From an uncultured Mollicutes bacterium (GTDB lineage: Bacteria; Bacillota_I; Bacilli_A; Acholeplasmatales; Anaeroplasmataceae): 37,108 nt of DNA. The notes beneath the pieces were generated by a model, which saw only the letters and a list, made by a program, of their open reading frames with translations, did no database searches and was not told where the DNA came from. Positions 8,822 through 37,108 of the stretch are shown here, piece after piece. The position numbers were made by a program, and so were the translations under genes. How positions within the stretch are numbered: position 1 is the first letter of the stretch; every line of letters starts with the position of its first letter. The stretch lies in assembly GCA_945923475.1 (NCBI GenBank), contig CAMELE010000020.1, positions 1-37,108 on the forward strand. The letters are read 5' to 3'.

Positions 8822-8894
8822 ATAGGGTAGAGGAAAGAAAATAATTCTTTGCCCCTCCCATTGCACCGTACGTACGAATCTCGTATACGGCGCT
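8822..8894 (-). ncRNA. Group II intron domains V and VI
   Basis: On the minus strand 8894-8862 gives the domain V hairpin. The AGC triad is followed by a seven-pair basal helix (GCGCCGT with ACGGTGC), a two-base bulge in the right arm and a short upper stem with a GATT-type loop. Then a purine-rich stem (GGGAGG with CCTCTACCC, 8858-8825) matches domain VI, and the intron would end in TAT at about 8822. The catalytic core hairpins appear intact, although almost everything upstream has been lost. Confidence 0.75.
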
Positions 8895-9027
8895 AATGAT
8901 TTCTTTCTTATGCTCATAAAAGTATGCATCTAATTGATTAATTGTCATTTTATCAATACCACTTGATTTCCTCATATATTTTGTTTTCGGTTGCCAGACC
9001 AATTACATTATATAGGAGTTTTTTCAT
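8895..9027 (-). pseudogene. Remnant of the intron reverse transcriptase N-terminus
   Basis: From the ATG at 9027 the first frame reads MKKLLYNVIGLATENKIYEE. A frameshift then moves to the frame that reads SSGIDKMTINQLDAYF followed by YEHKKEIISAV, which matches the GIDGMTVEELxxYL segment at the N-terminus of group II intron RTs. The coding similarity stops where domain V begins, so about 350 residues, including all catalytic RT motifs and the maturase domain, have been deleted. Confidence 0.75.
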
Positions 9028-26495: not shown

Positions 26496-27770
26496 TTATG
26501 TTTGTAAATATCCAGTGATATCTTCTATAGATATACCATTAGAAATTAATGTTTTAATAGCACGTTGTAAATCTGATTTAGCTAATTTAACTTTTACTTC
26601 TGTAGGCATTTCTTCAGTTTGTAAATCTGATGGATTCCATAATACACCTGTTTTTATAATGTGATATATAGCAATAAGGATCATTCTAGCAATGGCAATA
26701 ATGGCACGTTTCTTACCTCTACGTTTAGCAATTCTTTCGAATTTCTTAGCGTAGTAAGAATTAGTTTTGTCCTTAACTGCAGCGTGAGCGACTTGAACAA
26801 GACAAGGTTTAAGATAGACACCGGCACGAGAAATTTTTACTGATTTCTTTTTGCCAGCTGATTGATTGTTGGTTGGAGTTAATCCAGCCCAGGAACAAAG
26901 TCTTCGTTGTGAATCAAAATGAGACATATCACAACTGATTTCAGAGATAGTGATTATAGCAGATTTTCTATCCATACCTGGAATACCACATAATAAGTCA
27001 ATATACATATTATATGGTTCAACAAGAGAATCAATCTCTGATTCTAGTTTTGAGATAGAATTAGTGATATAATCAAGATGTTCCTTTACAATGGAAATGC
27101 GTGTTTTTTGAGCAGTTGTAAAGTTGGAATTTTTAACAGCGTTAAGGATTTCTTCGTTAGTTGATTTACGTTTACCTTTATTCGGAAGCAAAGATAAACA
27201 ATACTCATCATCGAAGTCCTTATCACATGTGGATAAGATATAATCGATAATAGCTTGTGAACCCTTACCGAAAATATCAGAAAATACATGGTCCACTGCA
27301 AGATTACCAACTGTTAAACAGTTATGATATCTATTCATTTCACCAGAACGAAGTCCGGTAAGCTTATATTTGTATCTTGTGAATTCACGAAGAATACGTA
27401 TTTCCTTGGAAGGAATGTAAGAACCCCTTACCATACCAAGACGAAATAAATCAGCAATCCATTTAGCATCTTTATTATCGTCTTTCTCACCTTGAATGGC
27501 TCTAACCCATTTAGGATTAGCGACAGTAACATTAATTTTGTCTTCTAATACATTAAAGACTGGAACCCAGTATTTACCTGTTGATTCCATACATAAAAAT
27601 AAACAATCATTAGCGATTAACCACTTTTTAAATTCAAGTAAATCTTTATTAAAAGTAGAAAATCGTTTCTTAATATATTGTGGTTTTGGTTGAGCATCCT
27701 TAATTATTACAGCAACTAAGAAAGTTTTGTGTACATCAACCCCACAACAAATCGGATATTTAACATCCAT
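26496..27770 (-). CDS. IS110-family DEDD transposase
   Basis: This 424-aa protein has both domains of IS110 recombinases. The N-terminal RuvC-like DEDD domain shows Asp11 in CCGVDVHK, a Glu in CMESTGKYW, and Asp residues in EKDDNKDAKWIADL. A coiled region spans about 200-265. The C-terminal Tnp domain shows LLCGIPGMDRKSA, CSWAGLTPTNNQSAGKKK with the serine of SAGKK as expected nucleophile, and RAGVYLKPCLVQVAHAA. The frame is intact, so the enzyme may be active. The Shine-Dalgarno AAGGAGG is paired in a leader hairpin (27781-27805), which should hold expression down. Confidence 0.95.
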   Translation of the reverse strand: MDVKYPICCGVDVHKTFLVAVIIKDAQPKPQYIKKRFSTFNKDLLEFKKWLIANDCLFLCMESTGKYWVPVFNVLEDKINVTVANPKWVRAIQGEKDDNKDAKWIADLFRLGMVRGSYIPSKEIRILREFTRYKYKLTGLRSGEMNRYHNCLTVGNLAVDHVFSDIFGKGSQAIIDYILSTCDKDFDDEYCLSLLPNKGKRKSTNEEILNAVKNSNFTTAQKTRISIVKEHLDYITNSISKLESEIDSLVEPYNMYIDLLCGIPGMDRKSAIITISEISCDMSHFDSQRRLCSWAGLTPTNNQSAGKKKSVKISRAGVYLKPCLVQVAHAAVKDKTNSYYAKKFERIAKRRGKKRAIIAIARMILIAIYHIIKTGVLWNPSDLQTEEMPTEVKVKLAKSDLQRAIKTLISNGISIEDITGYLQT

Positions 27771-33129: not shown

Positions 33130-33543
33130 AATGGACCTGAAGCTATTGCGTTTAGAGAAGTACTTAATGGATCAAAACCATCAAAACAATTTATGCCACA
33201 TTATATAGATGAAGAAGGCCATGAAATGGTATTAAGAGAAGTCGATGGGAAAGATGTATTGTGTAGAAAATATCAAAAGAGCTACCATATACCAAAAGAA
33301 CGTTCTCATCATTACAATCGTAAGCAAGCTACATATCAGCAAATTAAGGACTATATTATGAAGAAGTATGGTCTTAAGATTCATACTGTATATATCTCTG
33401 AAGTAAAGAGAATGCATGGTGTTGAGATGCAGGCTAATAGAAGAAAAACTGATCCCAAATATGAGTGTCCTCAGGATAAAGTAGCTGCAATAGAAGATGC
33501 ATTGAGATATTTTAACATTATTGTTTTATACGTAACAAATTAG
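33130..33543 (+). pseudogene. 5'-truncated gene with a small domain seen in mobile elements
   Basis: An open frame runs from after a TAA at 33127 to 33543. The first Met (33193) gives 116 residues, but the frame upstream also resembles the neighbouring decayed gene (IAFREV here, IPFREV there). The N-terminus has therefore probably been lost. The C-terminal part reads ATYQQIKDYIMKKYGLK, then VYISEVKRMHGVEMQANRRK and ALRYFNII. This resembles a short domain at the end of proteins annotated RlmD/RumA in Clostridia and also found alone. No methyltransferase motifs are present. Function unknown. Confidence 0.5.
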
Positions 33544-33772: not shown

Positions 33773-34697
33773 ATGGAACAAACATTAGTTGAACAAGTTC
33801 AAGAATCTATCTTACTTGAATACTTAGATTTTAAAGAAAAGGAATTACAGAAATCAAAAGAGGAAATCTTTAGAGATTATTATGAGATTCACTTCTATGA
33901 ATAACTTTCAAACTTCACCAGTTGTGGAGAAGATATCTTAGATGAAAAACACTTTAGATGTTTATCAAAAGAAAAGGATTTAATCATGAAAGAATTATTA
34001 GATGTTGTAGATAAGAAAGGTTACACATTTAGATATGCTACTGAAGAAGAATTAGGAAAAGGTTGCGAAGGATTGTGTAACTACAACACTAAAGAAATCT
34101 TAGTTAAAGAAGGCATAAGTGATTTACAAACGGTATCTGTTTTAGTTCATGAATATGGACATGAAGAACGTTGTAACCTTATTACATTAATTATTAAAGA
34201 AATTCATTTTAATGAAAATAATCAAATAGGCAAAATAATATTTAAATTTAATATACCTCAAGAAGAAGCAAATGTAATAAAAAATCAAAACAAAGTAGTT
34301 GATGATTCAGTAGTTATTGAAATGAATATTGACGGAGAAGCAGTTGGGGGGGGTAATACCTTTTAGAGAAGTTCCTAATCGACAAGTTAAACCTAAAACT
34401 ATTAAAGAAAAGGCAGCAAAAGAGAAAATACCAAAGTTAATTGAAAAGAAACCTAGACCAGAGCAGTACAAAAGAAAAACAGCTACATATAAACAAATTC
34501 AAGAATATATAAAATAAGAATTTGGACTTATTGCTCATTCAAGTTACATAGCTGAAATAAAAAGAAAGTACGGTGTTGGTATGCAATCAAATAGAAGAAA
34601 AGATGGAACTAAACAATCTGTTAACCATCCAACAAAAGAAATGACAAAAGCTATAGAAACAGCATTGCTTCATTTTAAAATTATTAATGAAAATTAA
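33773..34697 (+). pseudogene. Decayed gene with HExxH-type metallopeptidase and C-terminal domain
   Basis: One reading frame starts at ATG 33773, is stopped by TAA at 33902-33904, and continues in frame through the ATG at 33986 to a run of eight G at 34346-34353. There a one-base shift moves to the frame reading VIPFREVPNRQ. A second TAA interrupts at 34515-34517 before the natural end at 34697. The middle has KEILVKEGISDLQ and LVHEYGH, a zinc peptidase motif like that in ArdC/IrrE-type antirestriction proteins of plasmids and ICEs. The end (TATYKQIQEYI, then EIKRKYGVGMQSNRRK) is homologous to the truncated gene at 33130-33543. Three lesions show that it is dead. Confidence 0.65.
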
Positions 34698-34823
34698 ACA
34701 ATTTAAATAAAAATTTATTTTTTGAAATTATGAATATAAATAATAAAAAGTGAATAAAATAACATTGAAAAGCGAAAATATTTTCCATTTTTGTTCTAAA
34801 AAACTACAAAATTGATTATTCTC

Positions 34824-34852
34824 TTGAAAAAAAAGATTGGAGGTGGTAAAAT
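34824..34852 (+). promoter_or_regulatory. Promoter of the second ATPase-TOPRIM pair
   Basis: TTGAAA and TAAAAT are 17 bp apart, with TGG before the -10. The GGAGGTGG in the spacer is not a ribosome-binding site. Transcription from near 34859 gives a leader of about 25 bases to the ATG at 34886. Confidence 0.7.
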
Positions 34853-34885
34853 ATAAATACTACAAATCTAGTGAGGTACAATGAT

Positions 34886-36313
34886 ATGAATTTAGGTATT
34901 AGAATATTGAGTGTTCAAATCAAAAATATAAAAAATACCAAAAATGGTATTGTTGAGTTTGATTCAAAAAAGAAGATTGAAGAAGCTGATTTTAGACTTG
35001 ATAGTTCAGATGTTATTGGTATATATGGACCTAATGGTAGTTCAAAAACATCAATGGTAAATGCTATAGATATTTTAAAAAAAGTTATCATTAGTCAAAA
35101 CTCTAATAAAAATGTATTTACTAACAAGTTTAATAGTTTTGAATTTTTTGATATTATTACAAGTAATGAGCAAACTGCTTCAATAGAGATGTCGTTTTTC
35201 CACGATGGAGTTGATAAGAGAATATTTTTTTACGAAATTAAATTTATTAAAAACAATGAAGAAAAGAAGTCAGTAATTATTAATGAAAAGTTAACTTATA
35301 AACAATATGATTCTAAAAATCAAAAATGGAGTAAGGAATCAAAACTAATAGAAGTAGATTTTTCTAAAGATTTATCATCTTTTATTTCGCCATTAGCTTT
35401 TTTATCTTCTATGAAAAAAATAGATAAAAATATTCCTAATGAGTTAGTTTTATTAAGAGGAATTTCTAATTCGAAAGATTCTACATTTATTTTTTCTGAT
35501 GAATTGATAAATATTTTATTAAGAAATGATGAATACAAATCGATTGCCGTTGCTGTTCGAAATATGAAGATATTTGCAATTCATAATATGCATGTTTATA
35601 ATAATAAATCTATAAGCCAAATTGCAGCTAATGATGCAATTCCATTTTTCTATAAAAATGAAACTGAAAACTTAATTAATACTTTTGTTGGAAGATTCAA
35701 TATATTTGGAGAAAGCAAGTTACAAATAAGTTTGAAAAATGTAATTTATGAATATTTTCAGGAGATAGATATAGTTATCAATAAAATAATTCCTAATATG
35801 AGAGTTAAAGTAGTTGATTTAGGAAATACAATACTTGATGATGGTTCTGAAGGGTTTAAATGTGAAGTTGTTTCAATTAGAAACGATGTTCAAATTCCGT
35901 TAAGATTAGAGTCGGATGGTATAAAAAAAATAATATCATTAATTTCAGCTATGGTAGATGTTTTTAATAATAAATATTCTATATTAATTGTAGATGAATT
36001 TGATTCTGGAATATTTGAGTTTTTATTAGGAGAAATATTAATATCATTTAAGCAAAATGCTAAGGGGCAATTATTGTTTACATCACATAACCTTCGTGCA
36101 TTAGAAGTAATAAAAGAATCTATTATTTTTTCGTCAATTGATGAAAATGATAGATATATTAGTTATCCAAGAATTAGTGATACAGGAAACTTACGAAGTC
36201 AATATATTAAAAGATTATTTTTAGATGATAATAATAAGTTTGCAGAGCAAATCGATATTTACGATATATATCGTGCTTTTGTAAAGGCTGGTGAGCTTAT
36301 TAAACATGAGTAG
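34886..36313 (+). CDS. AAA/ABC-type ATPase of a second defence-like pair
   Basis: From the ATG at 34886 the protein has 475 residues; GAGG is nine bases before it. A GTG at 34871 would add five residues but overlaps that ribosome-binding site. The P-loop is GPNGSSKT (48-55), with Ser in place of the usual Gly before the Lys. The signature-like region is LESDGIKKIISLISAM, Walker B is YSILIVDEFDSGI, and the switch histidine is in LLFTSHNLRAL. It is an SMC/OLD-like ATPase, only distantly similar to the one at 7459-8727. The TOPRIM gene overlaps its end by eight bases, so the two are coupled. An abortive-infection role is inferred from this layout. Confidence 0.8.
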   Translation: MNLGIRILSVQIKNIKNTKNGIVEFDSKKKIEEADFRLDSSDVIGIYGPNGSSKTSMVNAIDILKKVIISQNSNKNVFTNKFNSFEFFDIITSNEQTASIEMSFFHDGVDKRIFFYEIKFIKNNEEKKSVIINEKLTYKQYDSKNQKWSKESKLIEVDFSKDLSSFISPLAFLSSMKKIDKNIPNELVLLRGISNSKDSTFIFSDELINILLRNDEYKSIAVAVRNMKIFAIHNMHVYNNKSISQIAANDAIPFFYKNETENLINTFVGRFNIFGESKLQISLKNVIYEYFQEIDIVINKIIPNMRVKVVDLGNTILDDGSEGFKCEVVSIRNDVQIPLRLESDGIKKIISLISAMVDVFNNKYSILIVDEFDSGIFEFLLGEILISFKQNAKGQLLFTSHNLRALEVIKESIIFSSIDENDRYISYPRISDTGNLRSQYIKRLFLDDNNKFAEQIDIYDIYRAFVKAGELIKHE

Positions 36314-36995
36314 AAAATTTTTGTTAATAATTTGTGAAGGACTTTCTGATCAAACGACTTTATATAAGCCAACTAAAAATTTCATTTCAAAAAAGAATAT
36401 TAATATAATGACTCGAATTACTGGTGGTGATATAAGTTTGAAAGCTGAGGCGACACTTGAAGGATGTATTTCTGAAATTCAAAGTATTATTAAGTTTTAT
36501 AAAGATAACTATAATTTGTTAACAACTGATTTTTTTGGTGTATATCATATTATTGATACAGATGGTGCATTGAGCCAAAATGATATTTATGTTCAGTGTG
36601 ATTCAGGTTATTACATAAAAGATGGTTTGATATATACTGAAGATATTGAAAAGTCAAAGAAGATAAATGATACTAAAAGAGAAATAATAACGAATTTAGC
36701 AAATATTAAGCAAATAAGTGATGTGAACTATAAAGTTTTATTTTTTTCTAGAAATTTAGAACATGACTTGTACAATAAGCCAGTATGTACTGTAAACGAG
36801 AAGATAAAATTATCTGATGATTTTGAGTTGAAGTATGCAGGTAATGCAGAACAGTTTTATAAAATAATTGGAACTTCGCAATTTTCTGTACCATCTAACT
36901 ATGATGAAAGTTGGGCATATATTCTTGATGAAACTAATTCATTAAATAGAGGAACTAACTATTTATATCTTCTTAACGAAATCAAAAAACAATAA
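36306..36995 (+). CDS. TOPRIM-like partner of the second ATPase
   Basis: From the ATG at 36306 the protein has 229 residues; a GTG at 36291 would add five. LLIICEGLSDQTTLY carries Glu11 and VYHIIDTDGAL carries Asp84 and Asp86, the Glu and DxD of a TOPRIM nuclease fold. A later SRNLEHDLYN resembles the conserved N/P-x-x-E segment of RloB-type proteins. It is not close to the RloB protein at 6808-7455 in sequence but has the same layout. The pair looks like an OLD or AbiL-type system split over two genes. A terminator follows. Confidence 0.7.
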   Translation: MSRKFLLIICEGLSDQTTLYKPTKNFISKKNINIMTRITGGDISLKAEATLEGCISEIQSIIKFYKDNYNLLTTDFFGVYHIIDTDGALSQNDIYVQCDSGYYIKDGLIYTEDIEKSKKINDTKREIITNLANIKQISDVNYKVLFFSRNLEHDLYNKPVCTVNEKIKLSDDFELKYAGNAEQFYKIIGTSQFSVPSNYDESWAYILDETNSLNRGTNYLYLLNEIKKQ

Positions 36996-37020
36996 AAATA
37001 ATTTTGAATATAACTCAATA

Positions 37021-37055
37021 AAAAAAGCTATTAGAGAATTTCTGATAGTTTTTTT
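37021..37055 (+). terminator. Terminator of the second ATPase-TOPRIM operon
   Basis: CTATTAGA pairs with TCTGATAG (one T-G pair) around a five-base loop and is followed by seven T. After it 37056-37108 holds a G-rich stretch and two copies of CACCAAATT, with no gene visible. Confidence 0.85.
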
Positions 37056-37108
37056 GGCACTCCACCAAATTAGGGGGGTGTGGGGGAAATCATAGTCACC
37101 AAATTCAG

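Follow-up and report, generated by a model that had tools for sequence, protein, structure and literature searches.

The distal end of the window, the 37,108-nucleotide stretch of low-GC bacterial DNA analysed here, carries, close to chromosome replication genes, two adjacent genes, one for an ATPase (A) and one for a TOPRIM protein (B), that occur as a strict pair, move between genomes and decay on one side only, through B. The pair probably constitutes a mobile sensor and effector module, most likely directed against phages by abortive infection, in which A would restrain the putative nuclease B until a trigger frees it. The assignment of roles follows the PARIS system, in which AriB is sequestered by AriA until a phage protein triggers its release, whereupon it cuts tRNA-Lys (PMC11455837, PMC12409363); because of this analogy, A is the probable sensor and inhibitor and B the probable killer. 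On the same grounds, A would assemble with B during their synthesis from a single coupled mRNA and would keep it inactive, a phage-related trigger would change the ATPase so that B is freed or activated, and B would act as a metal-dependent nuclease using residues E11, D84 and D86. The nucleic acid it cuts would be one needed by the cell; our first guess is tRNA, as for AriB, and the next is DNA nicking. P2 Old has been reported to cut a host tRNA, as cited in PMC13261556. A further precedent is the validation in E. coli of two TOPRIM_OLD toxins that partner ATPases neutralise (PMC10440598).

All features of the pair lie on the forward strand. Gene A runs from an ATG at position 34886 to a stop at 36313 and encodes an OLD/ABC-type ATPase of 475 aa; an in-frame GTG at 34871 offers an alternative start. 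Gene B (protein P0002, 229 aa), which the alignment and an AlphaFold2 model identify as a TOPRIM-fold nuclease-like protein, runs from an ATG at 36306 to a stop at 36995. Both genes are as the first-pass annotation had described them, including an overlap of 8 nt between the reading frames (36306–36313), which is likely to couple their translation. In closely related pairs the dN/dS ratio is 0.05–0.36 for both genes alike, which indicates purifying selection; the two reading frames are therefore not chance occurrences. GC content is 23% in the pair region (34501–36000) against about 30% in the whole window. The terminator proposed for the pair was recovered as a strong 15-bp A-tract/T-tract hairpin at 37021–37055, of the intrinsic type with a T-tract (−14.3 kcal/mol, z = −5.7), detected by folding energy after a GC-based scan had missed it. 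The proposed promoter fared less well: a promoter-like site, TTGAAA-17-TAAAAT, whose second hexamer is preceded by TG, is present at 34824–34852, but extended −10 matches turn up just as often after shuffling (21 observed, 21.4 expected), and the site stays tentative, marked by its position only. The contig and the window both end at 37108, and anything farther downstream lies outside the sequence.

Judged by its motif layout, A is an ABC-type, OLD-like ATPase, the "AAA" of its Pfam match (AAA_21, 8e-14) being a label only. An alignment of 44 homologues places a Walker A motif, GPNGSSKT, at residues 48–55 (35027–35050), with G48, N50, G51, S52, K54 and T55 invariant. It is followed by an ABC-signature-like motif, E342-S-D-G345 (35909–35920; E342, S343 and G345 invariant), by the Walker B pair D370-E371 with the D-loop residue D373 (35993–36004, invariant) and by the H-loop histidine H401 in FTSHN (36086–36088, invariant). 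The nearest defence models in PADLOC are AbiLi (2.1e-28) and AriA (2e-14), both of which are matched by all 44 homologues, and A appears to be a distant relative of these two proteins. Profile comparison with ATPases of RloB pairs, one of which forms another ATPase and TOPRIM module in the window, confirms that the catalytic parts are homologous (98%, 2.7e-14).

The evidence for the nature of B comes from conserved residues and a predicted structure. Glu11, Asp84 and Asp86, which had been named as its TOPRIM residues, are invariant in 63 homologues. In the model, the putative catalytic Glu11 (36336–36338) lies at the end of strand 1 (residues 4–10) and D84-T-D86 (36555–36563) at the end of strand 3 (76–84), the placement typical of TOPRIM domains. 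A third conserved motif, S148-x-N-L-E-H153 (36747–36764), follows the strand 140–147; its H153 is invariant and S148, N150 and L151 are conserved in at least 90% of the homologues. The full set of invariant residues comprises E11, G12, D42, D84, D86, G87, Y103, K124, H153, K166, W203 and N218. Structure prediction from the single sequence reached a pLDDT of 30, and the alignment of 63 homologues was needed to obtain a model with pLDDT 92.1 and pTM 0.89. The modelled topology (E4-10 H13-30 E32-38 H51-69 E76-84 ... H114-132 E140-147) forms an alternating strand-helix core, which together with the invariant E and DxD residues assigns B, as a prediction, to the TOPRIM fold.

P0002 itself has no match in Pfam or PADLOC (both up to E 1), NCBIfam or PHROGs, in keeping with the suggestion that the pair belongs to a less described family. 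Its homologues weakly match Toprim, OLD-like_TOPRIM, DUF4276 and DUF3226. A Foldseek search of the PDB with the B model returned a best E of 4.7e-3 and none below 1e-3, with the PARIS complex containing AriB (8ux9) at rank 12 (E 0.028); in the viral Foldseek library a phage RloB-like protein ranked fourth (E 0.009), and no match was confident. Sequence matches of B to an integrin I-domain and other Rossmann-like PDB entries were dismissed as chance matches. Identification of B as RloB was likewise rejected, with no RloB or AbiLii match in Pfam or PADLOC and an hhalign probability of 0.4% against a shallow alignment of six RloB sequences, a result that agrees with the distance from the RloB pair noted earlier.

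The two genes form a coherent, patchily distributed family. The pair is found in 6 of 100 relatives, in 20 of 392 Bacilli-level genomes sampled from the phylum group of the window, in 36 of 299 genomes of the [Clostridium] aerotolerans family (Lachnospiraceae-type) and in 11 of 391 genomes of the [Clostridium] aerotolerans class. It is accordingly neither a housekeeping family nor a locus belonging to the core of all relatives. It also resides on three Bacillota plasmids and, flanked by phage genes, on the C. difficile phage pCD1602_4. Peptide-pattern scanning was unsuccessful with the B sequence or alignment; with the ATPase alignment it confirmed 236 loci, some of them in spirochaete and Fibrobacter MAGs, 80 of which were kept together with seven viral contigs as the locus set. 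The immediate neighbours vary and are mostly housekeeping genes; known defence genes are few among them, association with defence islands is weak, and no third gene recurs beside the pair except in near-identical strains. The pair is mobile, because its distribution is patchy, it is carried by plasmids and the C. difficile phage, and its neighbours are not conserved.

Throughout the family the order is constant, A followed by B on the same strand, and the genes overlap by 1–17 nt in 75 or more of the 79 pairs measured, with start codons assigned by rule. Of the 299 genomes, 37 contain A and 36 contain B, almost entirely the same ones. Distances among the A proteins correlate with those among the B proteins (mirror-tree r = 0.81 over 76 pairs, against a maximum of 0.29 in 2000 permutations, relatedness inflating r), and the two genes are co-inherited. 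No fusion of A and B was found among the loci; frames of 463 and 475 aa in L280 and L281 proved to be read-through of the overlapping frame. A clade from one Bacilli family (L264, L267, L268, L280, L281) has a shortened ATPase of 341–380 aa in which the central part of the profile is missing.

In the loci collected, loss within the pair is confined to B. Among loci retrieved through B, each of the 47 intact B genes had an intact A directly upstream and no locus contained B only, the ATPases of 341–380 aa being counted as intact and a few loci recurring between samples. Collected by A, the 299-genome sample holds 27 intact pairs; six of 33 full-length A genes (about 18%) are accompanied by a broken B, whether through truncation, deletion or a stop, and the converse, a broken A with an intact B, was not observed in this sample. 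One further genome of the sample (G395) has A with no B detected. The first locus set adds 13 intact A genes without an intact B, a count that leaves out the contig ends L020 and L035 and includes one locus, L066, that belongs to both samples. B carries internal deletions in L044, L046 and L049, is truncated in L051, L055, L066 and L087, survives as a remnant of 32 aa in L032, and has left no trace beside the intact A of L026, L028, L029, L067 and L068. As B makes up about one third of the pair, six of six breaks falling in B by length alone has a probability of about 0.001. Assembly errors could account for part of the asymmetry, yet B has only half the length of A. Decay of B with retention of A fits a costly effector that is restrained by A. 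The solitary ATPases (L026, L028, L029, L032, L067, L068) are possibly decoys or regulators; in two of the genomes a complete pair is present as well (L018 with L026, L064 with L032).

The same asymmetry bears on the other ways in which an ATPase and a TOPRIM protein might cooperate. A stable A+B complex could work as a DNA nuclease in the manner of Gabija or OLD, with ATP or nucleotide levels gating DNA nicking and B never being released. In OLD and GajA the ATPase does control a TOPRIM domain that nicks or cuts DNA (PMC10568477), and the weak Toprim and OLD-like_TOPRIM matches of B members lend this arrangement some plausibility. We nevertheless consider it unlikely, as A and B are fused in no locus, neither a GajB-type helicase nor any other third gene is constant across loci, no such helicase lies upstream in the window (which ends at 37108), and frequent loss of B with retention of A suits a restrained toxin better.

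A restrained toxin might also serve the element that carries it. The pair would then be an addiction module, toxin B and antitoxin A, whose main role is to maintain the plasmid, integrative element or phage bearing it, phage defence being at most a secondary function. The toxins and neutralising ATPases validated in E. coli (PMC10440598) show that such pairs exist. The toxin-antitoxin-like asymmetry of decay and the copies on plasmids and a phage would be expected of an addiction module; most copies, however, stand alone among chromosomal housekeeping genes, and a simple neutraliser would hardly require an ATPase of 475 aa with every ATPase motif invariant, which makes this explanation rather improbable. 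A host function in DNA or RNA maintenance instead of defence is very improbable: although A is weakly similar to RecF/SMC and OLD-type proteins can be cellular, as PMC12796447 describes for Cran1, an archaeal OLD-like protein with a cell-cycle role, the pair sits on mobile elements, is often broken in B and is found in just 6 of 100 relatives and neither congener, and this patchy distribution makes a Cran1-like role unlikely.

Within the favoured reading, a module that restrains and releases its effector most likely works like PARIS or AbiL, as judged by analogy. With PARIS the pair shares an OLD/ABC-type ATPase and a TOPRIM protein on separate adjacent genes, the match of A to the AriA profile, and carriage on phages and other mobile elements. 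It differs in its effector: B matches neither DUF4435, the Pfam family of AriB, nor any PADLOC model, and has no confident structural match. AbiL resembles the pair in being bicistronic, with an ATPase and a TOPRIM-like protein of the same E and DxD layout, and its AbiLi profile is the closest to A. A scores only 97 bits on this profile, however, against 304 for the RloB-pair ATPase of the window, and B matches neither RloB nor AbiLii. By its effector, the pair is a member of neither PARIS nor AbiL, and the first-pass view of a split OLD-type ATPase and TOPRIM pair distinct from the RloB pair is supported.

Other known systems are more distant. OLD proteins of class 1, Gabija of class 2 and retrons of class 3 combine an ABC-type ATPase with a TOPRIM domain; the pair differs from all three in that A and B are always two proteins and never fused, and in having no helicase, reverse transcriptase or constant third gene. 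The ATPase/TOPRIM candidates HEC-01, PDC-M and MADS in PADLOC give weak matches to A and to some B members, whereas P0002 matches no B model and the best member reaches an E of about 1e-3. The NetFlax pairs of a TOPRIM_OLD toxin (D44, D60) and an AAA neutraliser (D29) have the same two-gene plan and were tested in E. coli (PMC10440598); D60 (S. agalactiae) is a candidate member of the family of B. We tentatively propose that the pair may represent a separate class of split OLD-type immunity, with a TOPRIM family that has no recognisable sequence relation to AriB or RloB and with a trigger and a substrate of its own. Such a class would be widespread among Bacillota of the gut, would extend to MAGs of spirochaetes and Fibrobacter and to plasmids and phages, and would so far have escaped the defence-system catalogues.

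Split ATPase/TOPRIM systems such as PARIS and AbiL are a growing part of bacterial immunity, and few of them have a known trigger or substrate. The present family is compact, reaches about 12% of the sampled genomes of one gut-dominated family, and rides plasmids and a phage while having no model in common annotation libraries. We know of no phage, toxicity or nuclease assay of this family. The one-sided loss of B predicts that B is toxic alone and harmless with A, and comparing intact ATPases with orphan ones could allow sensing to be told apart from killing. Should B prove to cut tRNA, the case for tRNA cleavage as a common output of TOPRIM defence proteins would be stronger.

In the congener G002 the mae-fum genes are 95–97% identical to those of the window, and the similarity ends at about 32790, with 298 comparable bases beyond. 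The interval up to the pair contains repeats, two copies of a short module that plasmids also carry, and a fragment whose HEYGHE motif resembles that of zinc metallopeptidases; this content suggests that the stretch is acquired and partly decayed. The fragment (33986–34366) has a weak DUF6782 match and is probably the remains of a mobile-element gene. The module copies (33327–33447 and 34481–34601) are 72% identical in DNA sequence, the second being interrupted by a stop, and the encoded protein has matches among hypothetical proteins of Enterococcus and further plasmids. The A+B pair was not found in either congener (91% and 77% complete); the RloB pair occupies the same gyrA-side site in G002, where it is 98–99% identical. 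The occurrence of two such systems in the window had been read as an accessory hotspot beside oriC. Comparison of dnaA, fumarase and the flanks in relatives does not bear this out: where a relative carries one of the two systems and its dnaA could be located, the system shares a contig with dnaA in G064 alone, at a distance of 58 kb. From the congener and dnaA-contig comparisons, the two pairs therefore look like independent acquisitions, and a general oriC hotspot is not supported.

Several further elements were noted. Between the RloB-pair ATPase and gyrA, on the minus strand at 8822–8895, Rfam recognises a group II intron catalytic domain (RF00029, 44 bits), possibly an intron remnant beside the RloB pair. 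A gene at 26496–27770, between rpoE and a two-component system, resembles an IS110-type transposase by eye and has no match in the syntenic stretch of the congener G001. Four loci in relatives (L105, L106, L107, L108) combine another ATPase with a TOPRIM-like protein of 242–260 aa that weakly matches RloB (E about 1e-4), and appear by sequence to be yet another split family.
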